Origin: a virus
Virus record (IMG/VR): IMGVR_UViG_3300032313_001260
Span: 1 to 21,365 of that record
Length of the DNA: 21,365 nucleotides
Reading direction: 5' to 3' (one strand)
The position numbers and the translations under genes are program-made. The notes below the pieces were generated by a model. The model was not told where the DNA came from, searched no databases, and worked only from the letters and a program-made list of their open reading frames with translations. This document shows positions 2,602 through 15,695 of this stretch, piece by piece; position 1 is the first letter of the stretch; every line of letters begins with the position of its first letter.

Positions 2602-3039
2602 ATGCAAGTAAAAGGAACCAAAACCGAAGAGTGTTTGAAAGAAGCATTTGCAGGAGAATCAAAAGCCAATCGTCGTTATCTATATTTCGCAAACATGGCT
2701 GACATTGCAGGTGCTACAGATGTAGCCAACATTTTCCGTCATACTGCGGAAGGTGAAACTGGTCATGCACATGGCCACATGGAATATCTAGTCAACGGTG
2801 GCAGTGGCGATCCAGAAACAGGTTTGCCAGCAACCAATATCATTGAAGCACTTGAGTCAGCTATTTCGGGCGAAACACACGAGTACACTGACATGTACCC
2901 AGGCATGGCCAAGACAGCACGTGATGAAGGCTTTGACGAAATTGCCGACTGGTTCGAAACTCTAGCCAAGGCAGAGCGTAGCCATGCTGGTAAGTTCAAG
3001 AAAACTCTTGATGCTTATAAAGCAGAACAAAACAATTGA
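2602..3039 (+). CDS. rubrerythrin, diiron domain only
   Basis: A 145-residue ferritin-like diiron protein of the rubrerythrin family, which reduces peroxide in the cytoplasm and protects against oxidative stress. Predicted ligands are E19 ([11 protein letters not shown]), E52 and H55 ([10 protein letters not shown]), E91/E94 ([12 protein letters not shown]) and E125 and H128 ([10 protein letters not shown]). The usual C-terminal rubredoxin domain with two CxxC motifs is absent, since normal rubrerythrins are about 190 residues. Electrons must come from a separate donor, perhaps a host rubredoxin. Start is fixed by AAGGAG 8 nt upstream and a strong promoter. It is the first gene of a unit with the acetyltransferase and hydrolase that follow. 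Family assignment is firm; benefit to a phage is inferred. Confidence 0.93.
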
Positions 3040-3741: not shown

Positions 3742-3747
3742 TATAAT
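3742..3747 (+). promoter_or_regulatory. -10 element of pqqA promoter
   Basis: TATAAT at 3742-3747 has no good -35 at 17 nt, so activation by a phage or host factor may be needed. It lies about 50 nt before pqqA. Confidence 0.55.
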
Positions 3748-3753
3748 TGTGAT

Positions 3754-3772
3754 ACATACTGTTGCAGTATGT
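3754..3772 (+). promoter_or_regulatory. 5' UTR hairpin of pqqA
   Basis: ACATACTG (3754-3761) and CAGTATGT (3765-3772) form a perfect 8-bp stem with a TTG loop, right at the predicted transcript 5' end. A 5' hairpin like this usually stabilises an mRNA; it may also be a binding site. Confidence 0.5.
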
Positions 3773-3796
3773 TAATTTTAATCAAGGAGAAATAAC

Positions 3797-3871
3797 ATGG
3801 CATGGACTACACCAGCAGCACAAGATATGCGTTTTGGTTTTGAAATCACTATGTATATTGCTAATCGTTAA
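3797..3871 (+). CDS. pqqA: PqqA, PQQ precursor peptide
   Basis: This 24-residue peptide aligns along its whole length with PqqA of proteobacteria. It has an N-terminal M-x-W-x-x-P-A, then D-x-R-x-G-x-E-x-T-x-Y-I and the terminal NR. E16 and Y20 have the E-x3-Y spacing of the Glu and Tyr that PqqE (radical SAM, with PqqD) cross-links to start PQQ synthesis; PqqF/G, PqqB and PqqC finish the cofactor. The start is fixed by AAGGAG (3784-3789). The gene has its own -10, a 5' UTR hairpin and a strong terminator, so it is monocistronic and probably made in quantity. None of pqqB, C, D or E is next to it. I infer that the phage supplies precursor to host PQQ enzymes; a repurposed peptide is also possible. 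Confidence 0.85.
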   Translation: MAWTTPAAQDMRFGFEITMYIANR

Positions 3872-3890
3872 TTTTACGATTTAAACAAAC

Positions 3891-3919
3891 AAAAAAGGAC
3901 TCTATTGGAGTCCTTTTTT
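3891..3919 (+). terminator. intrinsic terminator after pqqA
   Basis: GGACTC (3897-3902) and GAGTCC (3908-3913) pair around TATTG. The stem is flanked by an A-run upstream and six T residues (3914-3919), so it can also end transcripts partly on the other strand. A clear Rho-independent terminator. Confidence 0.9.
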
Positions 3920-3949: not shown

Positions 3950-4759
3950 ATGCAATTTAATACTCCAATATTTTCTAATCGAGCAATAAACTCAATTGAA
4001 AAAAAGTACGATCAATTTGAAAATACATTTATTTGTAGGTGGTTATATGATATCTATCTTGGAGAATACGAAACCACTCTAGCATACCCAATTCTTAAAA
4101 ACAATTTTGAACAGAATTACTATCAAAATATTGACTTAACTGATGAAAATAAAAAATTGATTGGTCAATATTTTGATAGAATGATACATGATGAAACAGT
4201 ACACTCTCAACTGCTGTTAGATTTGTTAAAAAACAATTTCAACAAAGACGTGTTGCCGCATGATTTAATAACAATAAAAAAACAGACGCTTGATAGATTG
4301 AGAGATTATAGTCTTACCCAGTTGTTAACTAGATACTATGTTGGAGAATGTTGTCTTTGGACCGGCTTTTATTTACTATACAAAAATTGCTCAGACAATC
4401 AAACAGCAAAAATATTTCATCGTTTGGTAGTAGATGAATCGCATCACAATAATAATATTTTTAAAATATATCAAAAACTCTTTAGTTCCGTAGAGTTAGA
4501 AAACAATAGCTATATTAGTTATGTGACAGAGTTAAGGTATTTTGGGTTAGGTTTTGTAAAAAGTTTTTTTAAATTAAATGATGAAACTAGTAAAAATAGT
4601 AGATGGGTTTTGAATTTAATTTACAATCACGACTGGCAGAGTCAATTTAATTTGATTTTTTTAAAGAAAACTTTTAAACTGTATTCGTTGTTTAATCCCG
4701 AAAGCGATTTTGACAGTTATTGCAGAATAATAAACAAAGATGTGTTAACAATAAATTAA
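3950..4759 (+). CDS. ferritin-like diiron oxygenase
   Basis: A 269-residue helical protein with two copies of the E-(x)n-E-x-x-H signature of ferritin-like diiron-carboxylate enzymes. Predicted ligands are E39 (or E41) in LGEYETTL, E82 and H85 in HDETVHSQ, E133 in VGECCLWTG, and E163 and H166 in VDESHHNNN. That is six ligands, as in ribonucleotide reductase R2, AurF-like N-oxygenases and acyl desaturases; I cannot choose among these families. The C-terminal 90 residues are aromatic-rich and lack known motifs. The ATG has no Shine-Dalgarno and follows TAAATA by 4 nt. The gene is AT-rich, like the radical SAM gene at 5519. It directly follows pqqA's terminator, so it may be unrelated to PQQ, or may act on a peptide or metabolite from this region. 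Confidence 0.75.
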   Translation: MQFNTPIFSNRAINSIEKKYDQFENTFICRWLYDIYLGEYETTLAYPILKNNFEQNYYQNIDLTDENKKLIGQYFDRMIHDETVHSQLLLDLLKNNFNKDVLPHDLITIKKQTLDRLRDYSLTQLLTRYYVGECCLWTGFYLLYKNCSDNQTAKIFHRLVVDESHHNNNIFKIYQKLFSSVELENNSYISYVTELRYFGLGFVKSFFKLNDETSKNSRWVLNLIYNHDWQSQFNLIFLKKTFKLYSLFNPESDFDSYCRIINKDVLTIN

Positions 4760-4770: not shown

Positions 4771-4799
4771 TTGACAACAAAGATAAATAAATATACAAT
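4771..4799 (+). promoter_or_regulatory. sigma70-type promoter for leader RNA
   Basis: TTGACA (4771-4776), exactly 17 nt, TACAAT (4794-4799). The predicted start site is about 4806, immediately before the ATG at 4807. Confidence 0.8.
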
Positions 4800-4806
4800 A
4801 GAGACT

Positions 4807-4929
4807 ATGATGACTTCAGTACAATTACATAAATCGTTTATATCACAACCCGAATGTGGGCTAACAGCCTACTGGGGTATGATTACACGTGATATTAGTA
4901 ATCGTGTCCTGGGGGATTATAGAACCTAA
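4807..4929 (+). CDS. 40-residue peptide (leader or precursor)
   Basis: The reading frame begins at ATGATG at the predicted 5' end of its transcript, so it would be translated leaderless; no Shine-Dalgarno exists. The 40 residues include single Pro, Cys and Trp (FISQPECGLTAYWGM, 11-25) and end in GDYRT. It could be an attenuator leader peptide or a substrate for the nearby radical SAM or diiron enzymes. There is no run of regulatory codons. I do not recognise a family, and the transcript may instead be purely structural. Confidence 0.4.
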   Translation: MMTSVQLHKSFISQPECGLTAYWGMITRDISNRVLGDYRT

Positions 4930-4951
4930 GTGTAGTACAACTAAATTCTAT

Positions 4952-4985
4952 AAAACCCCAGGACTAAACACCCTGGGGTTTTTTT
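4952..4985 (+). terminator. intrinsic terminator of leader RNA
   Basis: AAAACCCCAGG (4952-4962) pairs with CCTGGGGTTTT (4972-4982) around a 9-nt loop, with a seven-T run at 4979-4985. A strong terminator, possibly conditional. Confidence 0.9.
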
Positions 4986-4997
4986 ATAAAGGAAGAA

Positions 4998-5518: not shown

Positions 5519-6646
5519 ATGCATAATAATTTTTGCCATCATCCGTGGATTGGTGTTGATATCACTGCACAAGGAGAATTTAGACCCTGTTGCAAATACG
5601 ATGGTTTCACAGAGACATTGTATCCAAGATCATTACAAGAGTACCAAGCAAGTTCTGAAATTTTACAACTCAAGCATGATTTATTGGCTGGCAAAAGAGC
5701 CGACGGCTGTAGAAGATGTTGGAACGATGAAGACAGTGGTGTATTAAGTAAACGTCAAATTGATTATACTGAAATTTTTAAAGACAAGATTACCAGTTTA
5801 GATTCTTATAAAATTTTAAGTATTACATTTGGAAATAGCTGCAATTTAACTTGTAGAACATGTACCAGCTACTACAGTTCAGGATGGATTGTGCCTGAAA
5901 CAAAATTACAAACCAAATTTCCTACAATAGAAATTTACAAGCATCACAAATTTTATCAAGATAACAAATTCATTGAATCAATATTGACATCTTTTAAAAA
6001 TGTTGTACAAATTGACTTTGCTGGTGGCGAAACATTTGTATCAGGAACAAAAGCGCACTTAGAATTTTTGGACTATTTTATTCAACAAGGTGCAGACAAT
6101 ATCAGCTTGCGCTATGTTACAAACGGTACAATTTTTCCAAACAAAGAATTTTGGCAGCGTTGGAAAAAATTTAAATCTTTAGAAATACAACTCAGTGTTG
6201 ATGGCACAGAACAACAATTTAATTATTTAAGATATCCAGCCGATTGGACAACGGTGTTGCATAACATAAATCTTTATAAACAGCAGGAGATTACCAAGCT
6301 GACAGTGAGTCATACAATTAGTAATCTAAACGTATTTTATCTGCCAGAATTTGTCATATGGTGTATCAAAAACAAATTGGGAAAGCCGCATTTTAATCTA
6401 GTAGAGGCGCCAAGTCATTACAATATTAAATCGCTACCCGGCACAATTAAACAAGCAGTGGCTGATAAACTTTTGAAGTACAATCTAAAAAATATAGTAG
6501 AGTACATGAATCAAGAAGATTTAAGTTCTAACTTTGATTTTTTTCTAGAATTAACTGACGAATTAGACTTACAAAGAAATCAAAATTTTGGTAGCACTTT
6601 TCCAGAATTTAGTAAAATTATCAGTGACTATAAAATGGGTGCGTAA
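5519..6646 (+). CDS. radical SAM protein, N-terminal twitch/SPASM type
   Basis: A 375-residue radical SAM enzyme that should bind a [4Fe-4S] cluster and cleave S-adenosylmethionine to a 5'-deoxyadenosyl radical. The cluster motif is C108-x3-C112-x2-C115 (GNSCNLTCRTC), followed by FAGGETF (168-173, GGE motif) and LSVDG near residue 230. Before the core lies a Cys-rich domain (C6, C24, C25, C64, C67; FCHHPWIGVDI and GEFRPCCK) typical of the N-terminal twitch/SPASM-like family found in phages and marine bacteria. It can hold an extra iron-sulphur cluster. It is not PqqE, whose SPASM domain is C-terminal. The start has no Shine-Dalgarno and follows TAAATA by 4 nt. Its last three codons and stop run into tRNA-Lys. 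Substrate unknown; candidates are nearby peptides, sugars or tRNA. Confidence 0.88.
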   Translation: MHNNFCHHPWIGVDITAQGEFRPCCKYDGFTETLYPRSLQEYQASSEILQLKHDLLAGKRADGCRRCWNDEDSGVLSKRQIDYTEIFKDKITSLDSYKILSITFGNSCNLTCRTCTSYYSSGWIVPETKLQTKFPTIEIYKHHKFYQDNKFIESILTSFKNVVQIDFAGGETFVSGTKAHLEFLDYFIQQGADNISLRYVTNGTIFPNKEFWQRWKKFKSLEIQLSVDGTEQQFNYLRYPADWTTVLHNINLYKQQEITKLTVSHTISNLNVFYLPEFVIWCIKNKLGKPHFNLVEAPSHYNIKSLPGTIKQAVADKLLKYNLKNIVEYMNQEDLSSNFDFFLELTDELDLQRNQNFGSTFPEFSKIISDYKMGA

Positions 6647-6713
6647 CTCAACTGGTTAGAGTAATCGGCTTTTAACCGATAAGTTGTGAGTTCGAGTCTC
6701 ACCGCACCTACCA
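6637..6713 (+). tRNA. tRNA-Lys(TTT)
   Basis: Full cloverleaf with encoded CCA, and loop CTTTTAA giving anticodon TTT. The first pair is G-U. Its first 10 nt overlap the end of the radical SAM gene, so RNase P cleavage would remove that gene's stop codon. Confidence 0.93.
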
Positions 6714-6718
6714 TACAA

Positions 6719-6781
6719 AAACACATTGGTTCAGAGGGTTGTTCCAAAGGTAATTTGCTTCTAAGAAGTCCCAGTGTGTTT
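6719..6781 (+). ncRNA. structured RNA D between tRNA genes
   Basis: AAACACATTGG (6719-6729) pairs with CCAGTGTGTTT (6771-6781) over 11 bp with one U-G. A GCTTC/GAAGT hairpin (around 6757-6769) lies inside. It is near tRNA size and sits between tRNA-Lys and tRNA-Gln, but has no T arm or anticodon arm. It may be a T4 band C/D-like stable RNA or a decayed tRNA. Confidence 0.5.
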
Positions 6782-6794
6782 CCGTATGATTTTT

Positions 6795-6870
6795 TGGGGG
6801 TTAGCTCAGTTGGTAGAGCAGCGGGTTTTGATCCCGCGTGTCACAGGTTCGAATCCTGTACCCCTTGCCA
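6795..6870 (+). tRNA. tRNA-Gln(TTG)
   Basis: The loop TTTTGAT gives anticodon TTG. Discriminator is G and the 1-72 pair is T-T (unpaired), both in keeping with tRNA-Gln identity. CCA is encoded. Confidence 0.93.
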
Positions 6871-6878
6871 GTTACTGT

Positions 6879-6954
6879 GGTGTCTATAGTGTAGTGGCCT
6901 GCACCCTGCTCTGTGAAAGCGGTAGTACCGGATCGATACCGGTTAGACACCCCA
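6879..6954 (+). tRNA. tRNA-His(GTG)
   Basis: The loop CTGTGAA gives GTG. An extra 5' G (position -1) faces C73, the hallmark of tRNA-His. CCA is encoded. Confidence 0.92.
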
Positions 6955-6955
6955 T

Positions 6956-7031
6956 GCTGCTTTAGCTGATGTGGTCATAGCGGTGGTTTGAAGAGCCATT
7001 GAACTAGGTTCGATTCCTAGGGGCAGCACCA
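6956..7031 (+). tRNA. tRNA-Phe(GAA)
   Basis: The loop TTGAAGA gives GAA; T arm CTAGG/CCTAG. The acceptor has two G-U pairs. It starts 1 nt after the CCA of tRNA-His. Confidence 0.9.
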
Positions 7032-7038
7032 ACAATTA

Positions 7039-7113
7039 CGGTCCGTAGCTCAGCGGAAGAGTTCTGGTCTTCGAAACCAGCTGTCGGGAGTTCGAATCTC
7101 TCCGGACCGGCCA
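7039..7113 (+). tRNA. tRNA-Arg(TCG)
   Basis: The loop CTTCGAA gives TCG, which by U34 wobble could read the whole CGN box. The acceptor CGGTCCG/CGGACCG is perfect, discriminator G, CCA encoded. Confidence 0.92.
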
Positions 7114-7121
7114 TGATTTAC

Positions 7122-7196
7122 ACCCGAGTAGCTCAGTGGTAGAGCACGACCTTGATAAGGTCGGGGTCGGTGGATCGTTCCCACCTTCGGGTACCA
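7122..7196 (+). tRNA. tRNA-Ile(GAT)
   Basis: The loop TTGATAA gives GAT; acceptor ACCCGAG/TTCGGGT. The T loop is ATCGTTC, an unusual order compared with the normal TTCGANT. Confidence 0.9.
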
Positions 7197-7197
7197 T

Positions 7198-7273
7198 GGA
7201 AGTGTAGCATAGCGGCCAATGCGCCACCTTCATACGGTGTTTATCGTGAGTTCGAGTCTCACCACTTCTACCA
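7198..7273 (+). tRNA. tRNA-Met(CAT), elongator
   Basis: The loop TTCATAC gives CAT. The 1-72 pair is G-U, so it is not the initiator. One anticodon-stem pair is a mismatch. One of three CAT tRNAs here; the isoleucine form is more likely the one at 13968. Confidence 0.85.
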
Positions 7274-7444
7274 CGATTTTTATAAATTTTAATTTTGCAT
7301 GATAAATATTATTAGCAGCGCCAATGTTCTTTTGACGCCGGACTAAAATTGACGCGGAGAATTGACTCCTTTTTACTGTGTTTCAGTAAGACGCCAACCG
7401 TGAGTAGTATTCATCTACTAGCTATAAAATTTAAACATAAAACT
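7274..7444 (+). promoter_or_regulatory. structured leader of PP-loop operon
   Basis: This 170-nt gap holds a TAAATA (7303-7308), GGAG/CTCC followed by five T (7356-7374, weak terminator), a 6-bp TTACTG/CAGTAA hairpin (7373-7389) and AGTAG/CTACT with a 7-nt loop (7403-7419). GACGC occurs three times. TATAAAAT lies at 7423-7430. It looks like a regulatory leader, but the regulator is unknown. Confidence 0.4.
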
Positions 7445-8584
7445 ATGACAATATATCCTGATAGATTTGGTTGCTATCGTGTGGGCGATTTAAAATTTTA
7501 TAGCAAATTAGAAGCCATAGAAATGCAGGCAAAAACAAATATACACCTGCACTGGGATTTTAACGAAGCGGCATTTAGTGCATACGATTGGACTGCGGAG
7601 CCCGAACAGTCTATTACCGAACTATACAAACAACGAGCACAACAGTTACGAGAAAAATATGATTATATCATATTGATTTACAGTGGTGGCGCCGATAGCG
7701 AAACTATTTTGCAATCGTTTGTTTACAATGATATCAAGTTGGATGAAGTGGCCAGTTATGTAAACTATTCAGCCACTGGTAAGAAAAATAATTTTTTAAA
7801 TGAAGAAATTTTTGGTAACGCTATTCCTAGACTAGAGCGGTTAAAAGAAAAATATCCTTGGCTCAAGCATCGTGTGATTGAACTGCGTGATCTAATGCTA
7901 GATCATTTCACTGACCAAGATGTAAAATTCAGATGGATATATTATACCAACACATTGTTCGATGCCAATTGCCCGGCAAGAGAATCTCTTGCTTTGAAAA
8001 TCAAAGACTGGGCAGATTTAATACATCAAGGTAAAAAAGTTTGCGTGTTATGGGGATATGACAAGCCCAGAATCATTAACGAAAACGATCGTTATTCGGT
8101 GCGCTTTATTGATATCATTGATAGTGGGCCAACAGTGAAATCTTTCGCAGGAGAACTACCTTATGACGATGAATTGTTTTATTGGACTCCTGAAATGCCT
8201 CAAATTTCAATCAAGCAAGGACACATAATCAAAAATTACTTAGACAACAACTGGAGCACTTCGGCATTTGTTTCAACAGAAAGAACTGATTTGGCCTATA
8301 AAAAAGTCAACGGTGTAAGACATTGGTTAAACAAAGACGGACTGCATGCATTGATCTATCCCAACTATGAATTGGCATTGACTGCGGCCAAACCACAAAA
8401 CACTGTGGTAACTGAGCGTGATATATGGTTCTACAGTATGGAAGAAAGCAATCAAGCATTGCAAACATGGAAAATGGGAGTTTCAAAATTATGGCAAATA
8501 TTGCCTGAATATTGGAAAAATAATCCTGATGATTTTAAAAAAGGTCTCAAACTTTGTTGGAGCAAGGATTATTATCTAACATGA
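7445..8584 (+). CDS. PP-loop ATP pyrophosphatase (alpha-hydrolase type)
   Basis: A 379-residue protein of the adenine nucleotide alpha-hydrolase (PP-loop) superfamily, which activates a carbonyl or tRNA base by adenylation. The PP-loop is IYSGGADSETIL (78-89). It lacks the CxxC motifs of the thiolases TtcA/TtuA and resembles phage-borne 'asparagine synthase/ExsB-like' proteins of unknown substrate; the N-terminal YPDRFGCYRVGDLKFYSK block is shared by that group. I choose the ATG at 7445 because it begins this block; an upstream in-frame Met would add a non-matching leader. No Shine-Dalgarno is seen. The stop overlaps the next start as ATGA, and the third gene overlaps too. With the PLP enzyme and diiron oxidase it likely forms one pathway making an amide, thio- or amino-modified small molecule or RNA base. 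Confidence 0.78.
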   Translation: MTIYPDRFGCYRVGDLKFYSKLEAIEMQAKTNIHLHWDFNEAAFSAYDWTAEPEQSITELYKQRAQQLREKYDYIILIYSGGADSETILQSFVYNDIKLDEVASYVNYSATGKKNNFLNEEIFGNAIPRLERLKEKYPWLKHRVIELRDLMLDHFTDQDVKFRWIYYTNTLFDANCPARESLALKIKDWADLIHQGKKVCVLWGYDKPRIINENDRYSVRFIDIIDSGPTVKSFAGELPYDDELFYWTPEMPQISIKQGHIIKNYLDNNWSTSAFVSTERTDLAYKKVNGVRHWLNKDGLHALIYPNYELALTAAKPQNTVVTERDIWFYSMEESNQALQTWKMGVSKLWQILPEYWKNNPDDFKKGLKLCWSKDYYLT

Positions 8585-9420
8585 CGCATTCTTATCACGA
8601 TTATCCTGCATGGCATAATGGTAAATTTTGTTGTGTTGATGATCTTAAAATTAGTATTTTGGATCTGGGACTTATTCACAGTGATGCCACATACGATGTC
8701 ATAGCCTTCATTGACAATGCGGGGTTGAAAATTGAACAACACATTGATCGTTTCATTGGCAGTTGCGATTATTGGCGTATACGGTTAAATTACTCCAGGC
8801 AAGAACTAATAGATGTTGTGAGTAAAATTCATGCGTTAACTGGGTGGACCAACAGTATTGTTTGGTTGTCAGTCACTAGAGGTATTCCAGTTTCGGGTAA
8901 TCCTAGAGATTTAATCAATTGTGAACCCAATGTGATGTGTTATGCCAAACCGTATCAACAGTTCAATGGTACAGGTCGAGCCACTGTGTGTTTGTCCCAA
9001 CAACGTCGGGTACCTGATTCAGGTGTGAATCAACTGCACAAAAATTTTGTGTGGTCAGATCTAACCAGAGCACAATGGGAAGCTATTGATAGAGGGTATG
9101 ATACAGCCGTACTGTTAAGCGCAGAAGGATATTTGACTGAAGGACCAGGATTTAATGTGGCTGTAATCAAAGACGACACAGTGTATGCACCACTCTCAAA
9201 TAGATTACCAGGTATAAGCATGCGATTAGTAGAACAAACATGCCAAGAAAACAACATTAGATTTGAATGGACCAACATTGATCAAGAACTGCTTGACACA
9301 TGCGATGACATGATTTTGACCACCACAATTGGTAATTTGGTCACCGTAGAAAATTACAACGGACGTGAGCTGACTCCGTCACAAATACAGAACAAATTAA
9401 AAAAGGAAATAAAATGCTAG
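8581..9420 (+). CDS. fold-type IV PLP enzyme (aminotransferase/ADC lyase)
   Basis: A 279-residue member of the class IV aminotransferase family: branched-chain or D-amino acid transaminases and 4-amino-4-deoxychorismate lyase (PabC). R57 in HIDRF, the PLP Lys K154 in QLHKNFVWSDL and TEGPGFN (186-192, E187) are at the expected places; length is normal. Start codon overlaps the upstream stop (ATGA), so it is translationally coupled. It is followed, with a 7-nt overlap, by the haem-oxygenase-like diiron oxidase. A PabC role would suit p-aminobenzoate or folate supply, and CADD-type diiron oxidases can also make p-aminobenzoate, but transamination of another product is just as possible. Confidence 0.88.
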   Translation: MTHSYHDYPAWHNGKFCCVDDLKISILDLGLIHSDATYDVIAFIDNAGLKIEQHIDRFIGSCDYWRIRLNYSRQELIDVVSKIHALTGWTNSIVWLSVTRGIPVSGNPRDLINCEPNVMCYAKPYQQFNGTGRATVCLSQQRRVPDSGVNQLHKNFVWSDLTRAQWEAIDRGYDTAVLLSAEGYLTEGPGFNVAVIKDDTVYAPLSNRLPGISMRLVEQTCQENNIRFEWTNIDQELLDTCDDMILTTTIGNLVTVENYNGRELTPSQIQNKLKKEIKC

Positions 9421-10175
9421 ATACAGTAAAATTAGATACAGAAGTTTTTTTGTCAGACACTGCCTATGTCACACGTGAAACCTTGGGCGATTCGGATATA
9501 GCCCGTTTTGTAAATGAAAAAATGGATTATATCCTCGATCATAGAGCCATTGAACATCCGTTTTTCAATCATTACGCTGTTAATGGATTGCCCGAAGAAA
9601 AGAGCAAACTTCTTTATCTTGAAACCAGACACTATTTCAAATACTTGCCTTATTACATTTGCGGTATTGCTTCGTTGGTAGAAGATGATGATGCTGCCGG
9701 CAATGATGTAGTAAGATTTATCGCATTTAATGCACAAGATGAACTAGGGGAGTCGTACAGTCACTCAGACATGTACAAAGACTTCATGTTCAAGAAAGGT
9801 ATTACTCAAGAGGAATTGGCGAATCATCGTCCGTTGCCTAGTACTGTTGCCTTGAACGAGGGTATTAGAGTATTATATAATACCAGACCTATTGCTAGAG
9901 CATTGGGTGCTTTATACGCCGACGAAACACTGAGTGCCAGTCTGGTGTCAAAATACAACAAAGGTCTAACAGCGGAAGGCCTATCTGAACAAGATAGATA
10001 TTTCTGGACTTTGCATTGTGAGTGGGAAGTGGGACATTCAAATGCAGTATATAATATTGTTGAGCCTTACTTGCAAACTGATCAGGATCGTCGGGCATTC
10101 GGTGATGGCATCGACCAGTACCTGTTTCTAATGGAAAAATATTGGGACGGTATTGAACAGTTGTTAACAAAATAA
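9414..10175 (+). CDS. haem-oxygenase-like diiron oxidase (TENA/PqqC-like)
   Basis: A 253-residue helical protein of the iron-containing redox/HDO family related to PqqC, TenA, CADD, UndA and BesC. Predicted metal ligands are E110 and H117 (NAQDELGESYSHSDMY), E171 (YADETLSASLVSKYNKGL) and H201, E205 and H208 (HCEWEVGHSN). PqqC itself is cofactor-free, so this full set of ligands argues for a diiron enzyme instead. HDOs cleave C-C bonds, N-oxygenate or self-sacrifice a Tyr (CADD, p-aminobenzoate synthesis). Overlaps the preceding PLP enzyme by 7 nt, so the three-gene unit is tightly coupled. Because pqqA lies 5.5 kb upstream a PQQ link is tempting, but not demonstrated. Confidence 0.8.
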   Translation: MLDTVKLDTEVFLSDTAYVTRETLGDSDIARFVNEKMDYILDHRAIEHPFFNHYAVNGLPEEKSKLLYLETRHYFKYLPYYICGIASLVEDDDAAGNDVVRFIAFNAQDELGESYSHSDMYKDFMFKKGITQEELANHRPLPSTVALNEGIRVLYNTRPIARALGALYADETLSASLVSKYNKGLTAEGLSEQDRYFWTLHCEWEVGHSNAVYNIVEPYLQTDQDRRAFGDGIDQYLFLMEKYWDGIEQLLTK

Positions 10176-10210
10176 CAACTGTTGTTGAATTAGCAATAAA
10201 AAATAAACGG

Positions 10211-10239
10211 TTGCTCAAAAAGGTTCCTTTTGTTATAAT
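10211..10239 (+). promoter_or_regulatory. promoter, copy 1 of repeated module
   Basis: TTGCTC (10211-10216), 17 nt, TATAAT (10234-10239). The surrounding AAATAAACGGTTGC, CAAAAAG and TGTGTATTGT-like downstream tract nearly repeat at 14891-14940. Confidence 0.75.
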
Positions 10240-10269
10240 TGGTGTATTGTAATTAACAAGGAGCGCAAA

Positions 10270-10425
10270 ATGAGTAAAAAACACTTTGAATTGATTGCAC
10301 ATTATATTTCGACTATGTTGGATAGTCACTGCAAACTCAATGCCGCAGTGGCAGTGGCATCGGCTTGTAAAGTAGCTAATCCCAAGTTTGATGAGCAAAA
10401 GTTTTTTAAGGCATGTGGAGTTTAA
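10270..10425 (+). CDS. small phage-type protein (51 aa)
   Basis: AAGGAGCG precedes the ATG. The peptide runs MSKKHFELIAHYI...AAVAVASACKVANPKFDEQKFFKACGV. This matches a widely seen phage family of short proteins beginning with K-x-HF and ending with N-P-x-FD-x-x-[KR]F-x-x-[AY]-C-G. Its function is unknown. It has its own promoter (10211-10239), separate from the operon above. Recognition of the family is from memory of its pattern, not a database match. Confidence 0.7.
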   Translation: MSKKHFELIAHYISTMLDSHCKLNAAVAVASACKVANPKFDEQKFFKACGV

Positions 10426-10428
10426 TAG

Positions 10429-10457
10429 TTGACAATAAAGAATCATTTTGTTATACT
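10429..10457 (+). promoter_or_regulatory. sigma70-type promoter
   Basis: TTGACA (10429-10434), 17 nt, TATACT (10452-10457). It serves the gene at 10488. Confidence 0.8.
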
Positions 10458-10487
10458 GTTTGAATAGTAAGTAACCAGGAGTGAAAA

Positions 10488-10814
10488 ATGAGTTTATTTG
10501 TGCCTACTTCAAGAAAAGAAACACAAGCATTAATGCGGTACTTAGATAAGAATAGACCTGCTATAAACGAACGTAAACAAGATCCTGCATACAAATCAGA
10601 GATCAAACAGTTGCGTGAGTTTCATGCCAAGTTGTATTCAAGTGATTTTAGTCACTTACCTAAACCCAAGGCTGGTGAAGAAATTAGTCCTTGGGCATTG
10701 TCAGGATTACAAGCAAAATGTTTTCTTGTAGCAGAAAAGTTTCAAGTACCATTTTTTGATGTAGTTGGCGATGCGAACTCTCATTGCAACGGTTACGAGA
10801 TTGATAGTAACTAG
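10488..10814 (+). CDS. hypothetical protein (108 aa)
   Basis: CAGGAG lies 9 nt before the ATG. Charged N-terminal half (TSRKETQALMRYLDKNRPAINERKQDP, residues 7-33), then HLPKPKAGEEISPWALSGLQAKCFLVAEKF and a polar tail with GDANSHCNGYE. Two cysteines, no membrane segment. I do not recognise a family. It stands alone between its promoter and the tRNA-Leu promoter, whose -35 region overlaps the end of this gene. Confidence 0.65.
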   Translation: MSLFVPTSRKETQALMRYLDKNRPAINERKQDPAYKSEIKQLREFHAKLYSSDFSHLPKPKAGEEISPWALSGLQAKCFLVAEKFQVPFFDVVGDANSHCNGYEIDSN

Positions 10815-10829
10815 TATTTCTGCTATACT
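10801..10829 (+). promoter_or_regulatory. promoter for tRNA-Leu region
   Basis: TTGATA (10801-10806, within the end of the coding region), 17 nt, TATACT (10824-10829), 18 nt before tRNA-Leu. Confidence 0.7.
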
Positions 10830-10847
10830 GGTTAAATAGTAAGTTTT

Positions 10848-10932
10848 GCCTGGGTGGTGGAATTGGTATACACGCTGGTCTTAGAAGCCAGTGCCGAAAG
10901 GCTTAAGAGTTCGAGTCTCTTCCCAGGCACCA
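10848..10932 (+). tRNA. tRNA-Leu(TAG)
   Basis: Class II tRNA with long variable arm; loop CTTAGAA gives TAG (CUN box). CCA is encoded. Its last nucleotides (ACCA) also form the outer end of the 20-bp inverted repeat that closes the next structured segment. Confidence 0.93.
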
Positions 10933-11153
10933 TAGTAAAACATATTAGGTTACCTACACCGCTAGGGCGTCCGGATAGACTGCAACACTGCCGAGTGTTG
11001 GTTGAGACCGGGTCATGAAACAAGGAGCAATCCTGGTAATTGCGGCGGAGTAGTAGGACGTAATGAGGTTGACAGACAAGTCCGTGGACGGCACGGTAGG
11101 ACAGGTTCAAAACTGTTTTTTCTGTCAAACACCCTAATATGCTTTACTATGGT
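10929..11153 (+). ncRNA. structured RNA F, 20-bp closing stem
   Basis: Arms 10929-10949 and 11133-11153 are complementary at 20 of 21 positions (A10940 faces C11142), starting inside the ACCA of tRNA-Leu. The 183-nt interior is GC-richer than neighbours and has CAACACT/AGTGTTG with GCCG loop (from about 10982), AGGA/TCCT closed by a GCAA tetraloop (from about 11023), GTCCGTGGAC, and a GACAG/CTGTC hairpin with T-run. No convincing frame is present. It may be a large regulatory or catalytic RNA, or a decayed tRNA/intron. I could not match RNase P, tmRNA or a group I core. Confidence 0.5.
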
Positions 11154-11159
11154 AGAGAC

Positions 11160-11238
11160 ACAAGGAAGTGGGTAGGCCCGCCGCAATAGCACCACGTAAG
11201 GCATCCTTGTTATACTTAATGTTGGAGTAAGGTCCAAC
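11160..11238 (+). ncRNA. structured RNA G and hairpin H
   Basis: ACAAGGA (11160-11166) pairs with TCCTTGT (11204-11210) with a GTGG/CCAC helix inside. GTTGGA (11221-11226) then pairs with TCCAAC (11233-11238) around GTAAGG. It fills the rest of the 320-nt gap before tRNA-Glu. No gene is seen. Confidence 0.45.
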
Positions 11239-11252
11239 CTACCAAGTTTTAT

Positions 11253-11327
11253 GCACCGTTCGTCTATCGGTTAGGACACCCGCCTTTCACGCAGGTAAGA
11301 GGAGTTCGATTCTCCTACGGTGTACCA
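11253..11327 (+). tRNA. tRNA-Glu(TTC)
   Basis: The loop CTTTCAC gives TTC; acceptor GCACCGT/ACGGTGT; one C-A mismatch in the anticodon stem. CCA ends at 11327, directly followed by the TATAAATA box. Confidence 0.9.
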
Positions 11328-11335
11328 TATAAATA
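11328..11335 (+). promoter_or_regulatory. exact T4-late-type promoter box TATAAATA
   Basis: TATAAATA starts immediately after the CCA of tRNA-Glu and ends 5 nt before the ATG at 11341. In T4, transcription starts about 6 nt after the box, here on the ATG itself. Confidence 0.6.
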
Positions 11336-11340
11336 CAAGC

Positions 11341-11586
11341 ATGAAAGATCTGTTAAAAAATTTGCCACAGATACTAGGTGCTTTACCTGAAATCGTAAAG
11401 TATCTAAAGTACATACCCGTGCTAATGGTATTAGCGGGTATCGGCTATGGCATTTTTTACTACATGGAAAATCATCGAGATCCATTTATCTGTGTCAACA
11501 ATCAAGTATTCGAGCAACTAAGACTAGACAGTGATGTTTATGTGTTTAGAGGCGAAACTTGTGTTGATTCTAAAGATTTAAAATAA
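11341..11586 (+). CDS. single-pass membrane protein (81 aa)
   Basis: Residues 1-24 form a Leu/Lys-rich amphipathic helix (MKDLLKNLPQILGALPEIVKYLK), 26-46 a membrane span (YIPVLMVLAGIGYGIFYYMEN), and the rest is an exposed tail with two cysteines (C53, C76) able to form a disulphide in the periplasm. The start at 11341 lies 5 nt after TATAAATA and has no Shine-Dalgarno; a further upstream ATG lies within tRNA-Glu and is rejected. A late-expressed inner-membrane protein; role unknown, holin or spanin-type accessory possible. Confidence 0.65.
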   Translation: MKDLLKNLPQILGALPEIVKYLKYIPVLMVLAGIGYGIFYYMENHRDPFICVNNQVFEQLRLDSDVYVFRGETCVDSKDLK

Positions 11587-11591
11587 TATTT

Positions 11592-11667
11592 GGGGGTGTA
11601 GCTCAATTGGTAGAGCGGGTGCTTTGCAAGCACTAGGTAGCGGGTTCAAATCCTGTCACCTCCACCA
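11592..11667 (+). tRNA. tRNA-Ala(TGC)
   Basis: The loop TTTGCAA gives TGC. Acceptor GGGGGTG/CACCTCC with one G-U pair; CCA encoded. It starts 5 nt after the stop of the membrane protein gene. Confidence 0.93.
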
Positions 11668-11674
11668 AGTCAAT

Positions 11675-11759
11675 GGGAGTGCGGCTAAGTTAGAGAGTGG
11701 CGGCTGACTGTAAATCAGTTCTTTCGGGTGAGTAGGTGCGAATCCTTCCACTCCCACCA
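11675..11759 (+). tRNA. tRNA-Tyr(GTA)
   Basis: Class II with long variable arm; loop CTGTAAA gives GTA; acceptor GGGAGTG/CACTCCC perfect; CCA encoded. Confidence 0.93.
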
Positions 11760-11768
11760 AATAGTAGT

Positions 11769-11843
11769 GCCTTGTTATTTCAGTGGTAGAATGTCTCCTT
11801 TACACGGAGAAGGTCGGCAGTTCGAATCTGTCACAAGGTACCA
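11769..11843 (+). tRNA. tRNA-Val(TAC)
   Basis: The loop TTTACAC gives TAC; acceptor GCCTTGT/ACAAGGT; CCA encoded. Confidence 0.92.
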
Positions 11844-11852
11844 AAGTTTTAT

Positions 11853-11931
11853 TCCGCAGAACCCGAGCAAGGTGCATGGGCGTGACTGTTAATCACTGGT
11901 TAGTAGAGTTCAATCCTCTAATGCGGAGCCA
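11853..11931 (+). tRNA. tRNA-Asn(GTT)
   Basis: The loop CTGTTAA gives GTT. Discriminator G, CCA encoded. The D arm is unusual (CCC/GGG with a long loop) and the seventh acceptor pair is G-A. Confidence 0.85.
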
Positions 11932-11938
11932 AGGACGT

Positions 11939-12097
11939 TCCGTTGTCAACGGATACTGTGACCCGCAGGATGAGAAGTGAGGTGACTCTCACGGGTGGTA
12001 GTCTTTAAACCAAAAGGCCGCTGGCAATGCGAGAACGGGACTGGTCGGGGAGCGGGTGGAGGTCGTGCGTGATGATGTATTGGTCGTAAGCCAATAT
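11939..12097 (+). ncRNA. structured segment I between tRNA-Asn and tRNA-Asp
   Basis: Stems: TCCGTT/AACGGA (11939-11953, loop GTC), ACCC with GGGT enclosing GTGAG/CTCAC (11961-11996), and TATTGG/CCAATA with a 7-nt loop (12078-12096). The stretch 12030-12065 is unusually G-rich. No reading frame with start signals is seen in 11932-12146. A TATAAT at 12109 lacks a matching -35. Confidence 0.4.
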
Positions 12098-12146
12098 GTT
12101 TGATGCGATATAATTACCGCCGCAGTCTGTCAGAGCATTTAATTCA

Positions 12147-12221
12147 GGTCCTATAGTATATCGGTAAGTATGGCGCCCTGTCACGGCGCAGAGACGGGTT
12201 CAACTCCCGTTGGGACCGCCA
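12147..12221 (+). tRNA. tRNA-Asp(GTC)
   Basis: The loop CTGTCAC gives GTC; acceptor GGTCCTA/TGGGACC; T arm ACGGG/CCCGT; discriminator G; CCA encoded. Confidence 0.93.
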
Positions 12222-12230
12222 AGTTTTAAT

Positions 12231-12305
12231 GCGGGTGTAACTCAGTGGTAGAGTGTCAGCCTTCCAAGCTGTTCGTCGCAGGTTCGATCCCTGTCACCCG
12301 CTCCA
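12231..12305 (+). tRNA. tRNA-Gly(TCC)
   Basis: The loop CTTCCAA gives TCC; acceptor GCGGGTG/CACCCGC perfect; discriminator T; CCA encoded. Confidence 0.93.
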
Positions 12306-12310
12306 CTAAA

Positions 12311-12368
12311 TTGTTGCTTTTTAGCAACATTGCTAAATCGGCGACTCGTGTTGCAATTTTAGCAACAA
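12311..12368. repeat. nested inverted repeats of GTTGCT/AGCAAC
   Basis: TGTTGCT/AGCAACA (12312-12329, TTTT loop) and TGTTGC/GCAACA (12349-12367), while TTGTTGCT at 12311 also matches AGCAACAA at 12361. The alternative pairings suggest a regulatory or transcript-end role. A related TAGCAACAAAAA occurs at 14882 upstream of another promoter. Confidence 0.5.
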
Positions 12369-12378
12369 AATCTTTTGG

Positions 12379-12407
12379 TAGACCATAAAGGCCCATTTTG
12401 CTATAAT
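12379..12407 (+). promoter_or_regulatory. promoter with palindromic -10
   Basis: TAGACC (12379-12384), 17 nt, TATAAT (12402-12407). The -10 is embedded in TGCTAT-A-ATAGCA, a perfect inverted repeat. The same TAGACCATAAA start and palindromic -10 recur at 18226-18254. Confidence 0.7.
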
Positions 12408-12437
12408 AGCAGTATAGTAACTAACAAGGAGAGCAAA

Positions 12438-12752
12438 ATGTCTAAACTACTCATTACTACCCAAGTTTACGAAAACTACGCCTGGCGCGAAGATGGCACC
12501 TTAGGCATCGGTGCTGATGCTTATTGGAAGGCCAAAGGCGGGAATGATTATGTGGTTAAGAATTTCCGCGGCGACGATACAATTGCAGTCATGGCTGTAC
12601 GCAGTCAAATTGAGACTGAGAATGATGGTTATCGTGAACATATTGTCGATTGGTCAATTGTTGCCGACGACTATCTGACTGAGTTCGAACGTAGCCAATT
12701 GGAGTACGACGGCGAGATTACTTTCCCTGCAACAGAGTTGGAAGTAGCATAA
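12438..12752 (+). CDS. hypothetical protein (104 aa), phage type
   Basis: AAGGAGAG precedes the ATG. The protein is acidic and mixed alpha/beta; it begins MSKLLITTQVYENYAWREDG, has GADAYWKAKGGNDYVV (26-41) and ends in a Glu/Asp-rich stretch. The N-terminal pattern LLITTQVYENYAWR occurs in small phage proteins of unknown role, and I recall no experimental function. It is the first gene of a pair with the phosphoesterase at 12769. The start is chosen for the Shine-Dalgarno rather than the upstream in-frame Met in the promoter region. Confidence 0.7.
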   Translation: MSKLLITTQVYENYAWREDGTLGIGADAYWKAKGGNDYVVKNFRGDDTIAVMAVRSQIETENDGYREHIVDWSIVADDYLTEFERSQLEYDGEITFPATELEVA

Positions 12753-12768
12753 TTATAAGGAGAACCAA

Positions 12769-13332
12769 ATGCCAGCAGTGTTTTTAGTTAGTGATACGCA
12801 TTTTGGTCACGCTGGCGTTTGCCGTTTTACTCGCAACGATGGAGTGACGAAACTGCGCCCGTGGGACGATCCTGCGGAAATGGATGAGTTCATGGTAAAA
12901 GCATGGAACGAGCGTGTCAAGCCCACGGACAAAGTGTATCATCTAGGCGATGTTGTTATTAACCGCCGAGCATTATCTACGTTGGCTCGTTTAAACGGCG
13001 ACAAGGTCTTGATCCGCGGTAATCACGACATCTTTCGCGATGACGAGTATAGACAGTACTTTCGTGAACTACGTGCATACCATGTCATGAACGGAATGAT
13101 ACTAAGCCATATTCCCATACACGAAGAAAGTCTGGGTCGTTTTGGAGTTAACATTCACGGACATCTGCATAGCAACAGAGTTATGAAAGATGGTGCTGTT
13201 GATGTTAGATATCATTGCGTCTGCGTAGAACAAACAGACTTTGCACCTATCTTGTTTGAAGATGTTGTCAAGCGTATAGAAGCAGAAGGTGGTACAATAG
13301 GTTTTAAAAACGGTAATGGCCCAACAATGTAA
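12769..13332 (+). CDS. metallophosphoesterase (calcineurin-like)
   Basis: A 187-residue calcineurin-like phosphoesterase with the five conserved blocks: SDTHFGHAG (8-16), HLGDVVI near 63, IRGNHD near 86, LSHIPIH near 110, and HGHLH near 125. These give a two-metal site (Mn/Fe/Zn) for phosphodiester or phosphomonoester hydrolysis. The size fits the small YfcE/phage-type group. AAGGAG precedes the ATG and the gene follows the 12438 gene by 16 nt. Substrate may be a cyclic nucleotide, a nucleic-acid end or a second messenger; phage enzymes of this type can blunt defence signalling, but that is inference. Confidence 0.88.
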   Translation: MPAVFLVSDTHFGHAGVCRFTRNDGVTKLRPWDDPAEMDEFMVKAWNERVKPTDKVYHLGDVVINRRALSTLARLNGDKVLIRGNHDIFRDDEYRQYFRELRAYHVMNGMILSHIPIHEESLGRFGVNIHGHLHSNRVMKDGAVDVRYHCVCVEQTDFAPILFEDVVKRIEAEGGTIGFKNGNGPTM

Positions 13333-13335
13333 TAG

Positions 13336-13364
13336 TTGACTGGGCTGTTACTAACATATATAAT
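13336..13364 (+). promoter_or_regulatory. promoter for tRNA-Ser/Thr block
   Basis: TTGACT (13336-13341), 17 nt, TATAAT (13359-13364), 9 nt before tRNA-Ser. Confidence 0.75.
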
Positions 13365-13372
13365 AAACACAT

Positions 13373-13467
13373 GGAGCGTTGGCCGAGTTGGTCGAAGGCA
13401 CTTTCCTGCTAAGAAAGCAAGTGGACAAAAATCTGCTTCGTTGGTTCGAATCCAACACGCTCCGCCA
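13373..13467 (+). tRNA. tRNA-Ser(GCT)
   Basis: Class II, long variable arm; loop CTGCTAA gives GCT (AGY); acceptor GGAGCGT/ACGCTCC perfect; discriminator G; CCA encoded. Confidence 0.93.
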
Positions 13468-13473
13468 AGTTTG

Positions 13474-13547
13474 GCCCTTTTAGTTAAATGGTATAACAGT
13501 TGATTTGTAATCATCAATTGGCAGTTCGATTCTGTCAAGGGGCACCA
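13474..13547 (+). tRNA. tRNA-Thr(TGT)
   Basis: The loop TTTGTAA gives TGT; acceptor GCCCTTT/AAGGGGC; one mismatch in the anticodon stem; CCA encoded. Confidence 0.88.
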
Positions 13548-13558
13548 AAGGATAATAT

Positions 13559-13786
13559 ATGCCACACTCAGCAGATGTAACTAAGCAAGTCATTGAAAGA
13601 ATGATGAACTTACAAGAGTTTACTGTCACTGTTCCAGTTGAAAATAACTGGATTCCGAATGGTCGAGCGCCGTTTGATATTCGAATTAAGAATGGACTTG
13701 CTACAGTATCCGTTCCGGCATTGACTGAAGCAGAAGCTCGTAGTAAAATAATTGCATATTTTAATGCAAGTGATACAGAAGATTAA
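13559..13786 (+). CDS. small hypothetical protein (75 aa)
   Basis: AAAGGATA lies just before the ATG. Sequence is a small alpha/beta protein: a polar N-terminus, FTVTVPVENNW (22-32), APFDIRIKNGLATVSVPALTEAEARSKIIAYF (38-69). The arrangement of two strands then a helix (TEAEARSKI) resembles several phage/bacterial small domains, but I cannot name one. It sits between tRNA-Thr and tRNA-Pro, and its stop ends 1 nt before tRNA-Pro. Confidence 0.6.
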   Translation: MPHSADVTKQVIERMMNLQEFTVTVPVENNWIPNGRAPFDIRIKNGLATVSVPALTEAEARSKIIAYFNASDTED

Positions 13787-13787
13787 T

Positions 13788-13865
13788 CCGGGTGTAGCTC
13801 AGCCAGGCTAGAGCACCTGCTTTGGGAGCAGGGGGTCGTAGGTTCGAATCCTGCTACCCGGACCA
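13788..13865 (+). tRNA. tRNA-Pro(TGG)
   Basis: The loop TTTGGGA gives TGG; acceptor CCGGGTG/TACCCGG; T arm GTAGG/CCTGC; CCA encoded. Confidence 0.93.
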
Positions 13866-13874
13866 AGTAATAAT

Positions 13875-13958
13875 GCCCGGATGGTGGAATGGTAGACACG
13901 ACAGACTTAAAATCTGTTTCCGTCAGGAGTGCCGGTTCAAGTCCGGCTCCGGGTACCA
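13875..13958 (+). tRNA. tRNA-Leu(TAA)
   Basis: Class II; loop CTTAAAA gives TAA (UUR); acceptor GCCCGGA/TCCGGGT; CCA encoded. Confidence 0.93.
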
Positions 13959-13967
13959 AGTTTAGCA

Positions 13968-14046
<79 letters not shown>

Positions 14047-14063
14047 TTTACATATTGACAAAA

Positions 14064-14243
14064 ATGAAAAAAATTTTTATTGCAATGGCAGAAACCAATA
14101 ACGGCGATCGAGTGTTTGGTAATGCATACTTAACGTATCAGAAAGCCTATGCTGCTGCACTGGATATGATTAAAGAAGTAGAAATCAACACAGAGTGGCA
14201 ATTGTTGCCCATAGTTGAAGAAATTGATTTTGTAGAAGATTAA
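14064..14243 (+). CDS. small hypothetical protein (59 aa)
   Basis: The frame starts MKKIFIAMAETNNGDRVFGN and ends with acidic EEIDFVED. It has a hydrophobic N-terminal strand, a helix (TYQKAYAAALDMIKEVE, 24-40) and a short strand. No Shine-Dalgarno precedes the ATG, so the start could instead be the internal Met at residue 8. It lies between tRNA-Ile2 and tRNA-Arg(TCT) and is probably expressed on the tRNA transcript. It is short, with a shape common among phage hypothetical proteins; function unknown. Confidence 0.5.
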   Translation: MKKIFIAMAETNNGDRVFGNAYLTYQKAYAAALDMIKEVEINTEWQLLPIVEEIDFVED

Positions 14244-14252
14244 TTAAAATAA

Positions 14253-14327
14253 CTGGCGTTCGTTCAACGGATAGGACATGGGTCTTCTAAACCCAGAATG
14301 GGGGTTCGATTCCCTCACGCCGGACCA
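14253..14327 (+). tRNA. tRNA-Arg(TCT)
   Basis: The loop CTTCTAA gives TCT (AGR); acceptor CTGGCGT/ACGCCGG with one T-G; CCA encoded. Confidence 0.92.
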
Positions 14328-14329
14328 GG

Positions 14330-14358
14330 TTTACAAAAAATCAATCATTTGCTATAAT
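14330..14358 (+). promoter_or_regulatory. sigma70-type promoter
   Basis: TTTACA (14330-14335), 17 nt, TATAAT (14353-14358), directly after the CCA of tRNA-Arg. Confidence 0.75.
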
Positions 14359-14382
14359 GTTGTTTTGTTTGAGGAGCAAGCA

Positions 14383-14685
14383 ATGAACGACACCAACGAC
14401 ATACTAGGCACTCCAATTGAAGTAGGTTCCACTGTTATAACATGCCACAATGGCAGAATAATCGTAGGACGTATTGCAGAAATATACGAAGAAAGAGGCA
14501 ATGTAAAAGTTGAACCTTTGCCTTATGACACAAATGGTAGAAGACCTCCACCTGGAACGAAACCGTTTCGTCGTGCAGACTACAATGTGTTTGTAGTAAA
14601 CGACCAAGACTTGTTTATGAGCACTCTTAAAGGGTATTGTCATAATACGGGTGAATTTGACGAAGACTACGAAGAAGAATTTTAA
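14383..14685 (+). CDS. hypothetical acidic protein (100 aa)
   Basis: GAGGAG precedes the ATG. The protein begins MNDTNDILGTPIEVGSTVITC and has a beta-rich middle (SH3-like strand pattern GRIIVGRIAEIYEERGNVKVEPL, 24-46), a Pro/Arg stretch (GRRPPPGTKPFRR) and a very acidic tail (FDEDYEEEF). The beta-rich section is like small phage SH3-type or RNA-binding domains, though no known motif is certain. Expressed from its own promoter; next to tRNA-Cys. Confidence 0.65.
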   Translation: MNDTNDILGTPIEVGSTVITCHNGRIIVGRIAEIYEERGNVKVEPLPYDTNGRRPPPGTKPFRRADYNVFVVNDQDLFMSTLKGYCHNTGEFDEDYEEEF

Positions 14686-14693
14686 AGAATAAT

Positions 14694-14771
14694 GCAACGG
14701 TGGCAGAGAGGCCCAATGCAAGGGACTGCAAATCCCTAAAACCGCGTGTTCGAATCACGCCCGTTGCTCCA
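14694..14771 (+). tRNA. tRNA-Cys(GCA)
   Basis: The loop CTGCAAA gives GCA; acceptor GCAACGG/CCGTTGC perfect; discriminator T as in tRNA-Cys; CCA encoded. Confidence 0.93.
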
Positions 14772-14777
14772 AACAAA

Positions 14778-14867
14778 GGAAGTGTGGCAGAGTCCGGCTG
14801 ATTGCACCTGTCTTGAAAACAGACGAACCGTAAGGTTCCGTGAGTTCGAATCTCACCGCTTCCGCCA
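14778..14867 (+). tRNA. tRNA-Ser(TGA)
   Basis: Class II with a long variable arm (GAACCGTAAGGTTC); loop CTTGAAA gives TGA (UCN); CCA encoded. Confidence 0.93.
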
Positions 14868-14900
14868 AAATCGTGCTAAAATAGCAACAAAAATAAACGG

Positions 14901-14929
14901 TTGCCCAAAAAGACTCATTTTGCTATAAT
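14901..14929 (+). promoter_or_regulatory. promoter, copy 2 of repeated module
   Basis: TTGCCC (14901-14906), 17 nt, TATAAT (14924-14929). AAATAAACGGTTGC, CAAAAAG and TGTGTATTGT are shared with the promoter at 10211-10239. Confidence 0.75.
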
Positions 14930-14958
14930 ATGTGTATTGTGTAATTGAGGAGCTCGTA

Positions 14959-15279
14959 ATGCAAAAACTCGTTAATTTTATTGCAATTAGTATTTTTGCA
15001 ACTTCTGCTGTTGCTGCAGATTGGGAGGATCCTGAAGCACGTTTTGATGCTACCAAGAACTTTACTTCTAAAAGTACAATAGAATGGGTACTTACGAAAG
15101 ATGTGCAAACAACGTGTGATCGTGAAAGCAAGCGGCGCGGACTGGGTGGATTTGATTATGCTGTATTGGCTTGTTCATTTTGGCAAGGATCAACCTGTAT
15201 TATCTTTACCAAGCCAACTACCACATTACACGAAATTGGTCACGAAATGAGACATTGCTTTCAAGGCAATTATCATTGA
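14959..15279 (+). CDS. exported small HExxH zinc-peptidase-like protein
   Basis: GAGGAGCTCG precedes the ATG. Residues 1-20 are a clear signal peptide (MQKLVNFIAISIFATSAVAA) with cleavage likely after AVAA. The mature 86 residues hold four Cys that may pair in the periplasm, and end in LHEIGHEMRHCFQ: HEIGH fits the zincin HExxH motif, with a further His as a possible third ligand. Zincin domains are usually larger, so it may be a minimal peptidase or a metal-binding protein. Its promoter is a copy of the one at 10211. A role in lysis or envelope remodelling is a guess. The final TGA overlaps the next -35 box. Confidence 0.72.
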   Translation: MQKLVNFIAISIFATSAVAADWEDPEARFDATKNFTSKSTIEWVLTKDVQTTCDRESKRRGLGGFDYAVLACSFWQGSTCIIFTKPTTTLHEIGHEMRHCFQGNYH

Positions 15280-15304
15280 CAACAAAAACAACTTCAAGTA
15301 AAAT
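15276..15304 (+). promoter_or_regulatory. sigma70-type promoter
   Basis: TTGACA (15276-15281, overlapping the previous stop codon), 17 nt, TAAAAT (15299-15304). Confidence 0.75.
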
Positions 15305-15335
15305 ATGAAGTATATTAACTAAGTAGGAGATGTAA

Positions 15336-15593
15336 ATGAATATTCGACTTCGTGCTGTTGCTCGTACTGCTGGAATGTTTGCTGTTGCTACCTTGGTTCC
15401 GTTGGTGCTGGTAGGATTGTTTCAATTGGATGCAGACATTCTTTTAACCTTATTTCTGTTATTGTTTTTTGCCTGGATGCTCTGGGTTGTTTATTCAATT
15501 AATCTTGGGCAACTTGAAACAGAAGAAAAGATTCGCGAAATGCAGGAGCGTCGCGAAACAATGTTATCTAACATAGTAAATAAACAAGAGTAA
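15336..15593 (+). CDS. two-pass membrane protein (85 aa)
   Basis: GTAGGAGATG lies 8 nt before the ATG. A basic N-terminus (MNIRLRAVARTA) leads to two membrane spans (about residues 13-33 and 35-55), followed by a charged helix (LGQLETEEKIREMQERRETMLSNIVNKQE) that is probably a cytoplasmic coiled coil. The layout resembles holin-like or i-spanin-like small phage membrane proteins, but no direct match can be claimed. It ends just before tRNA-Trp. Confidence 0.6.
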   Translation: MNIRLRAVARTAGMFAVATLVPLVLVGLFQLDADILLTLFLLLFFAWMLWVVYSINLGQLETEEKIREMQERRETMLSNIVNKQE

Positions 15594-15598
15594 TACGT

Positions 15599-15672: not shown

Positions 15673-15695
15673 ACTTTATTTTCAAGGAGTTTGTT

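Follow-up and report, generated by a model that had tools for sequence, protein, structure and literature searches.

We identified in viral DNA a stand-alone gene for PqqA, the 24-residue precursor peptide of PQQ, and its identity, its organization as a separate unit, its location in a phage and its conservation could all be shown at the sequence level. The gene is probably functional and would serve as an auxiliary gene that supplies only the substrate peptide to the PQQ enzymes of the host. More broadly, we lean towards the view that unrelated phages of PQQ-dependent bacteria carry only this sacrificial precursor, in some cases behind a leader that evolved in the phages. This would represent a substrate-dosage strategy in which the enzymes are those of the host, and its scale would have gone unnoticed because so short a gene escapes annotation.

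A pqqA gene in a probable fragment of a phage genome

The DNA analysed here (hereafter the window) is the same 21,365 bases as an IMG/VR virus record. Its proteins match those of two large contigs, G009 (166 kb) and G011 (148 kb), both of which encode phage portal proteins and also contain pqqA; G009 additionally encodes a baseplate wedge protein. Therefore, the window most likely represents part of the genome of a large tailed phage. It contains 24 tRNA genes, which are scattered over ~9 kb (6637-16043) and cover every amino acid except Asn, and an Rfam scan yielded only tRNAs plus near-threshold chance matches. Together with the occurrence of pqqA in cultured phages described below, these features bear out the phage-like nature that a previous sequence-only reading had assigned to this genome.

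The open reading frame encoding the peptide (Table 1) exceeds the curated cut-offs of both the Pfam PqqA family PF08042 (21.1 bits) and the NCBIfam equivalog TIGR02107 (20 bits), and PF08042 gave no matches across 14 control genomes. The Glu-x3-Tyr pair of PqqA, the residues that are turned into PQQ, is present as E16 and Y20. By these profile comparisons, the product is a genuine PqqA, as had been claimed from an alignment of the peptide that included this residue pair.

Table 1. Features of the pqqA unit and of the adjacent rubrerythrin gene in the window
Feature	Position	Strand	Evidence
Rubrerythrin gene, conserved pqqA neighbour in related phages but not required by the unit	2602..3039	+	PF02915, 90 bits
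-10 box TATAAT of the pqqA unit, weak -35	3742..3747	+	Sequence; conserved with the hairpin in related phages
5' leader hairpin ACATACTG-TTG-CAGTATGT	3754..3772	+	8 bp, -7.7 kcal/mol, z -2.3 (predicted fold)
Shine-Dalgarno AAGGAG, 7 nt 5' of ATG	3784..3789	+	Sequence; conserved in alignment
pqqA, 24-aa PQQ precursor peptide MAWTTPAAQDMRFGFEITMYIANR	3797..3871	+	PF08042, 38.8 bits; TIGR02107, 39.1 bits
Rho-independent terminator AAAAAAGGACTCT/ATT/GGAGTCCTTTTTT	3891..3919	+	13 bp, -15.5 kcal/mol, z -5.6

Several other features of the window deserve mention. Another small monocistronic unit (4771-4986) begins with a strong sigma-70-like promoter (11/12), followed by a 40-aa ORF (4807-4929) with no PHROG match and by a repeat (ACCCCAGG...CCTGGGGT) that resembles a terminator and has a run of T residues. 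Immediately after the pqqA terminator, positions 3950-4759 encode a 269-aa rubrerythrin-clan protein that also has no PHROG match and no homologue in the loci retrieved for comparison. In a 382-aa protein (16264-17412), two models of the 'sporadic carbohydrate cluster' match in tandem, one for a 2OG-Fe(II) oxygenase and one for the LIC12192 family, both below the cut-offs.

Predicted transcription unit of the phage pqqA gene

The ribosome-binding sequence, the leader hairpin and the strong terminator that had been noted around the gene were all confirmed, the latter two as predicted structures (Table 1), and none of 200 shuffled sequences was as stable as the terminator. The proposal that pqqA has its own promoter was upheld in part. 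The -10 box is a perfect TATAAT, and its arrangement with the hairpin is conserved in related phages, but a good -35 box is absent and the box was not among the predictions of a generic promoter scan of the window. The terminator-like site listed by the generic scan (3754-3772) corresponds to the 5' hairpin, which begins approximately at the transcription start expected from the -10 box.

Among phage pqqA genes encoding IANR/IATR-type peptides, a leader stem of at least 7 bp is present in 46%, compared with 3% of shuffled sequences and 7% of the leaders of bacterial genes whose peptides are of this type. The stem sequence varies among phage subgroups; its position is roughly maintained. The window and G009 each have a single copy of the combination of TATAAT and the ACATACT hairpin, in both cases upstream of pqqA, and a general phage promoter hairpin was rejected on this ground. 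These observations suggest a phage-specific pqqA leader, in which the hairpin at the 5' end may stabilize a short mRNA. At the 3' end, terminator-like structures follow pqqA in 52 of the 152 viral cases (2% in shuffled sequences).

Absence of other pqq genes

As previously noted for the window, no homologue of pqqB-E was found in it, whether by a PqqE profile, by a search for pqqB-E around pqqA or by tests of its enzyme-like ORFs; with no adjacent pqqB-E, the gene does not belong to a pqqABCDE operon. The search elsewhere gave the same result: tblastn detected none of pqqB, C, D and E near pqqA in 309 viral loci (a count that includes window-derived and whole-contig pieces) or in six isolate loci, and all four were detected in 24 bacterial loci used as the positive control. 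The PqqE cut-off was reached in none of the 50 virus records searched, the window among them, and 47 had not even a weak PqqE-like match, although many of these records are fragments, so that absence from the complete genome is secure only where the record is long. Only one of the 50 (G013) encodes, alongside pqqA, a PQQ-repeat protein as large as a dehydrogenase.

Two candidates in the window were rejected. The radical-SAM protein at 5519 belongs to NF033640 (twitch) and is not PqqE, and the protein at 9414, which has an HDO fold, resembles BesC/TENA and is not matched by an NCBIfam PqqC model. The latter, a haem-oxygenase-fold protein, scores 218 bits against 4-chloro-allylglycine synthase BesC, below the cut-off. 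Its gene and that of a class IV aminotransferase, the end of which it overlaps, together occupy 8581-10175, and the pair possibly represents a small amino-acid-modifying pathway in the phage.

Distribution among viruses

A search with a degenerate pattern for GFE[IV/M]TMY yielded at least 120 viral stretches, all with small PqqA-like frames, and tblastn detected pqqA in nine cultured Methylophilales phages and one spring podovirus. The pqqA-bearing Methylophilales isolates belong to unrelated lineages (Kyanoviridae, 141 kb; Zobellviridae, 43 kb; others, 35-39 kb). In the records of P19250A, MEP301, Venkman and MEP402 the gene is unannotated, and in those of Melnitz and Manatee Spring it is hidden under an antisense 'hypothetical protein' ORF. 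Furthermore, 15 of the 44 large contigs selected via other genes (rubrerythrin or phosphoesterase) contain pqqA, one of them in two copies. As far as sequence searches can tell, the lone viral pqqA is thus not a rarity of this genome but occurs widely, and for the most part unnoticed, in phages whose hosts use PQQ.

Two matches to 'Acinetobacter phage MD-2021a' were not counted, as the one inspected lies on a WGS contig that contains pqqBCDE as a complete operon. This record (L267, L431) contains a ppk gene and the full pqq operon, and is probably bacterial chromosome deposited as phage.

Among 80 rubrerythrin-bearing viral loci, approximately one-quarter contain pqqA within ~2 kb of the rubrerythrin gene, always on the same strand and in one of two arrangements, ~15-430 bp upstream or ~0.7-1.5 kb downstream. 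Peroxide is a product of PqqC chemistry, and a link through peroxide removal is conceivable; shared ancestry may also explain the pairing.

Possible role and alternative explanations

One PqqA peptide is spent for each PQQ, and the enzymes of the pathway are catalytic. Because these enzymes would already be present in the host, the peptide alone would suffice for the phage. During infection, pqqA would give rise to a short mRNA with its own terminator and a 5' structure, and host PqqD/PqqE would crosslink the peptide at Glu16-Tyr20. A protease, PqqB and PqqC would then complete PQQ. The phage would thereby contribute only the consumable substrate to pre-existing host enzymes, and the PQQ supply of host quinoprotein dehydrogenases, and hence periplasmic electron flow, would be held or raised after the shut-off of host transcription, presumably to the benefit of the phage. 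As cited in PMC9851590, 70-80% of the PqqA added to a cell-free extract was converted to PQQ (Wang 2021). The title of another study cited there (Ge 2015) describes one pqqA copy of Methylovorus as the dominant contributor, so extra copies need not raise PQQ.

The auxiliary-gene reading is supported by the profile scores, the breadth of viral occurrence, the invariant residues and low pN/pS described below, the lack of PqqE or pqqB-E in viruses and the presence of pqqA in all of the Methylophilaceae genomes drawn. The single PQQ-type dehydrogenase among the 50 virus records argues against it, as does, if the host lies in Comamonadaceae, the limited occurrence of pqqA in that family (see below). 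The earlier proposal that the phage may raise host PQQ is thus supported in part: a true stand-alone phage PqqA is most simply read as an auxiliary metabolic gene that feeds host PqqD/PqqE. Its inference of a methylotroph as the host is not supported for the window. Three other explanations are less likely than substrate dosage.

First, pqqA may be a recently captured host gene that confers no benefit and is kept by chance or through the mobility of the small unit. A ~140-bp stretch containing pqqA (Venkman/MEP301) is indeed common to otherwise unrelated Methylophilales phages, and three viral peptides are identical to bacterial ones, all of the Methylophilaceae type. However, only one CDS is identical in DNA sequence between 136 viral and 117 bacterial pqqA sequences, and the viral genes are under purifying selection, with a pN/pS of 0.13-0.25 versus 0.25 for the bacterial genes (the pattern bias is common to both sets). 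The recurrence of the gene across unrelated phages and a phage-type leader that is absent from host operons also argue against mere carriage, which we regard as improbable.

Second, the peptide might have been repurposed, with the radical-SAM enzyme at 5519 or another phage protein converting it into a non-PQQ product. The radical-SAM gene lies 1.6 kb downstream of pqqA, and such genes are also present in G009 and G011. However, this enzyme is of the twitch subfamily, nearly all virus records lack even a weak PqqE-like match, and every part of the bacterial PqqA consensus is retained in the peptide. A set of 75 distinct viral peptides shows no variation at W, P, R, G, F, E, T and Y, although the GFE-x-T-M-Y core is partly imposed by the search pattern. 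In the rubrerythrin-linked PqqA peptides, all found by profile and not selected by the pattern, G, F, E, T and Y of GFE-x-T-x-Y are likewise kept, and M varies. The invariant Glu and Tyr and the strong purifying selection thus disfavour the repurposing that had been offered as an alternative, and we consider it very unlikely.

Least likely of all is a decoy that floods PqqD/PqqE and, to the gain of the phage, reduces or stalls PQQ production by the host or consumes SAM: the viral loci and records searched encode the peptide but none of the enzymes, but a decoy could freely lose Glu or Tyr, both of which are invariant, selection on the viral gene matches that on bacterial PqqA, G013 couples pqqA with the PQQ-repeat protein, and pqqA co-occurs with methanol dehydrogenase in PMC7678222.

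Host range

Many viral PqqA peptides are of the Methylophilaceae type (EMRFGFEVTMYV[MC]N[KR]), and the methylotroph host fits these carriers but not the window, whose peptide type (DMRFGFEITMYIANR) is that of Comamonadaceae/Burkholderiales operons. The Comamonadaceae loci with the nearest PqqA in the genome set are normal, full pqqABCDE operons. This one short peptide points, with some uncertainty, to a Burkholderiales host. pqqA was present in 27 of the 121 genomes of the family of G004 (Comamonadaceae), mostly as a single copy, and in every one of 80 genomes sampled from the family to which G001 belongs (Methylobacillus, and thus Methylophilaceae), with 1-12 copies each. The latter agrees with the dispersed extra pqqA copies, typically accompanied by one set of the other pqq genes, that have been described in Methylophilaceae (PMC4109929).

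Significance and comparison with known systems

Viral PqqA itself was reported in 2020 for one Lake Baikal population, VP_266 (PMC7678222), and it is also listed among genes from reservoir sediments (PMC13188868). P19250A was stated to lack the reported genes (Coutinho et al., PMC7678222), but it does contain pqqA, which was missed earlier. The breadth of occurrence, the missed copies in isolates, the absence of other pqq genes, the selection on the peptide and the phage-specific leader are new with respect to the open literature searched. A 24-codon gene that gene callers overlook appears to occur commonly in phages that infect methylotrophs and other bacteria dependent on PQQ. If our reading is true, it provides a simple and testable example of a virus that supplements a cofactor precursor made on ribosomes, for which cultured phage-host pairs exist (Venkman, Melnitz, MEP301, MEP401/402 and P19250A), and phage pqqA may serve as a small marker for PQQ-using hosts.

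Compared with the PqqA of bacterial pqqABCDE operons, the window peptide has the same length, the full consensus and the Glu-x3-Tyr pair, and is 87.5% identical to Comamonadaceae PqqA. Unlike the operon genes, however, it is located in a phage, is not followed by pqqBCDE and has its own promoter-like box, 5' hairpin and terminator. As in the window, pqqA of VP_266, which lies on a T4-like phage contig, is a candidate auxiliary gene; the VP_266 genome has in addition a gene for methanol dehydrogenase and has been attributed to Methylophilaceae (PMC7678222), whereas the window shows neither sign. A further parallel is provided by the extra pqqA copies of Methylophilaceae (PMC4109929), which are also stand-alone, are often followed by a terminator and rely on one set of other pqq genes elsewhere in the cell, just as the phage gene has no adjacent set. 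The window copy differs from them in residing in a phage and in its leader hairpin, a feature rare in the bacterial copies.
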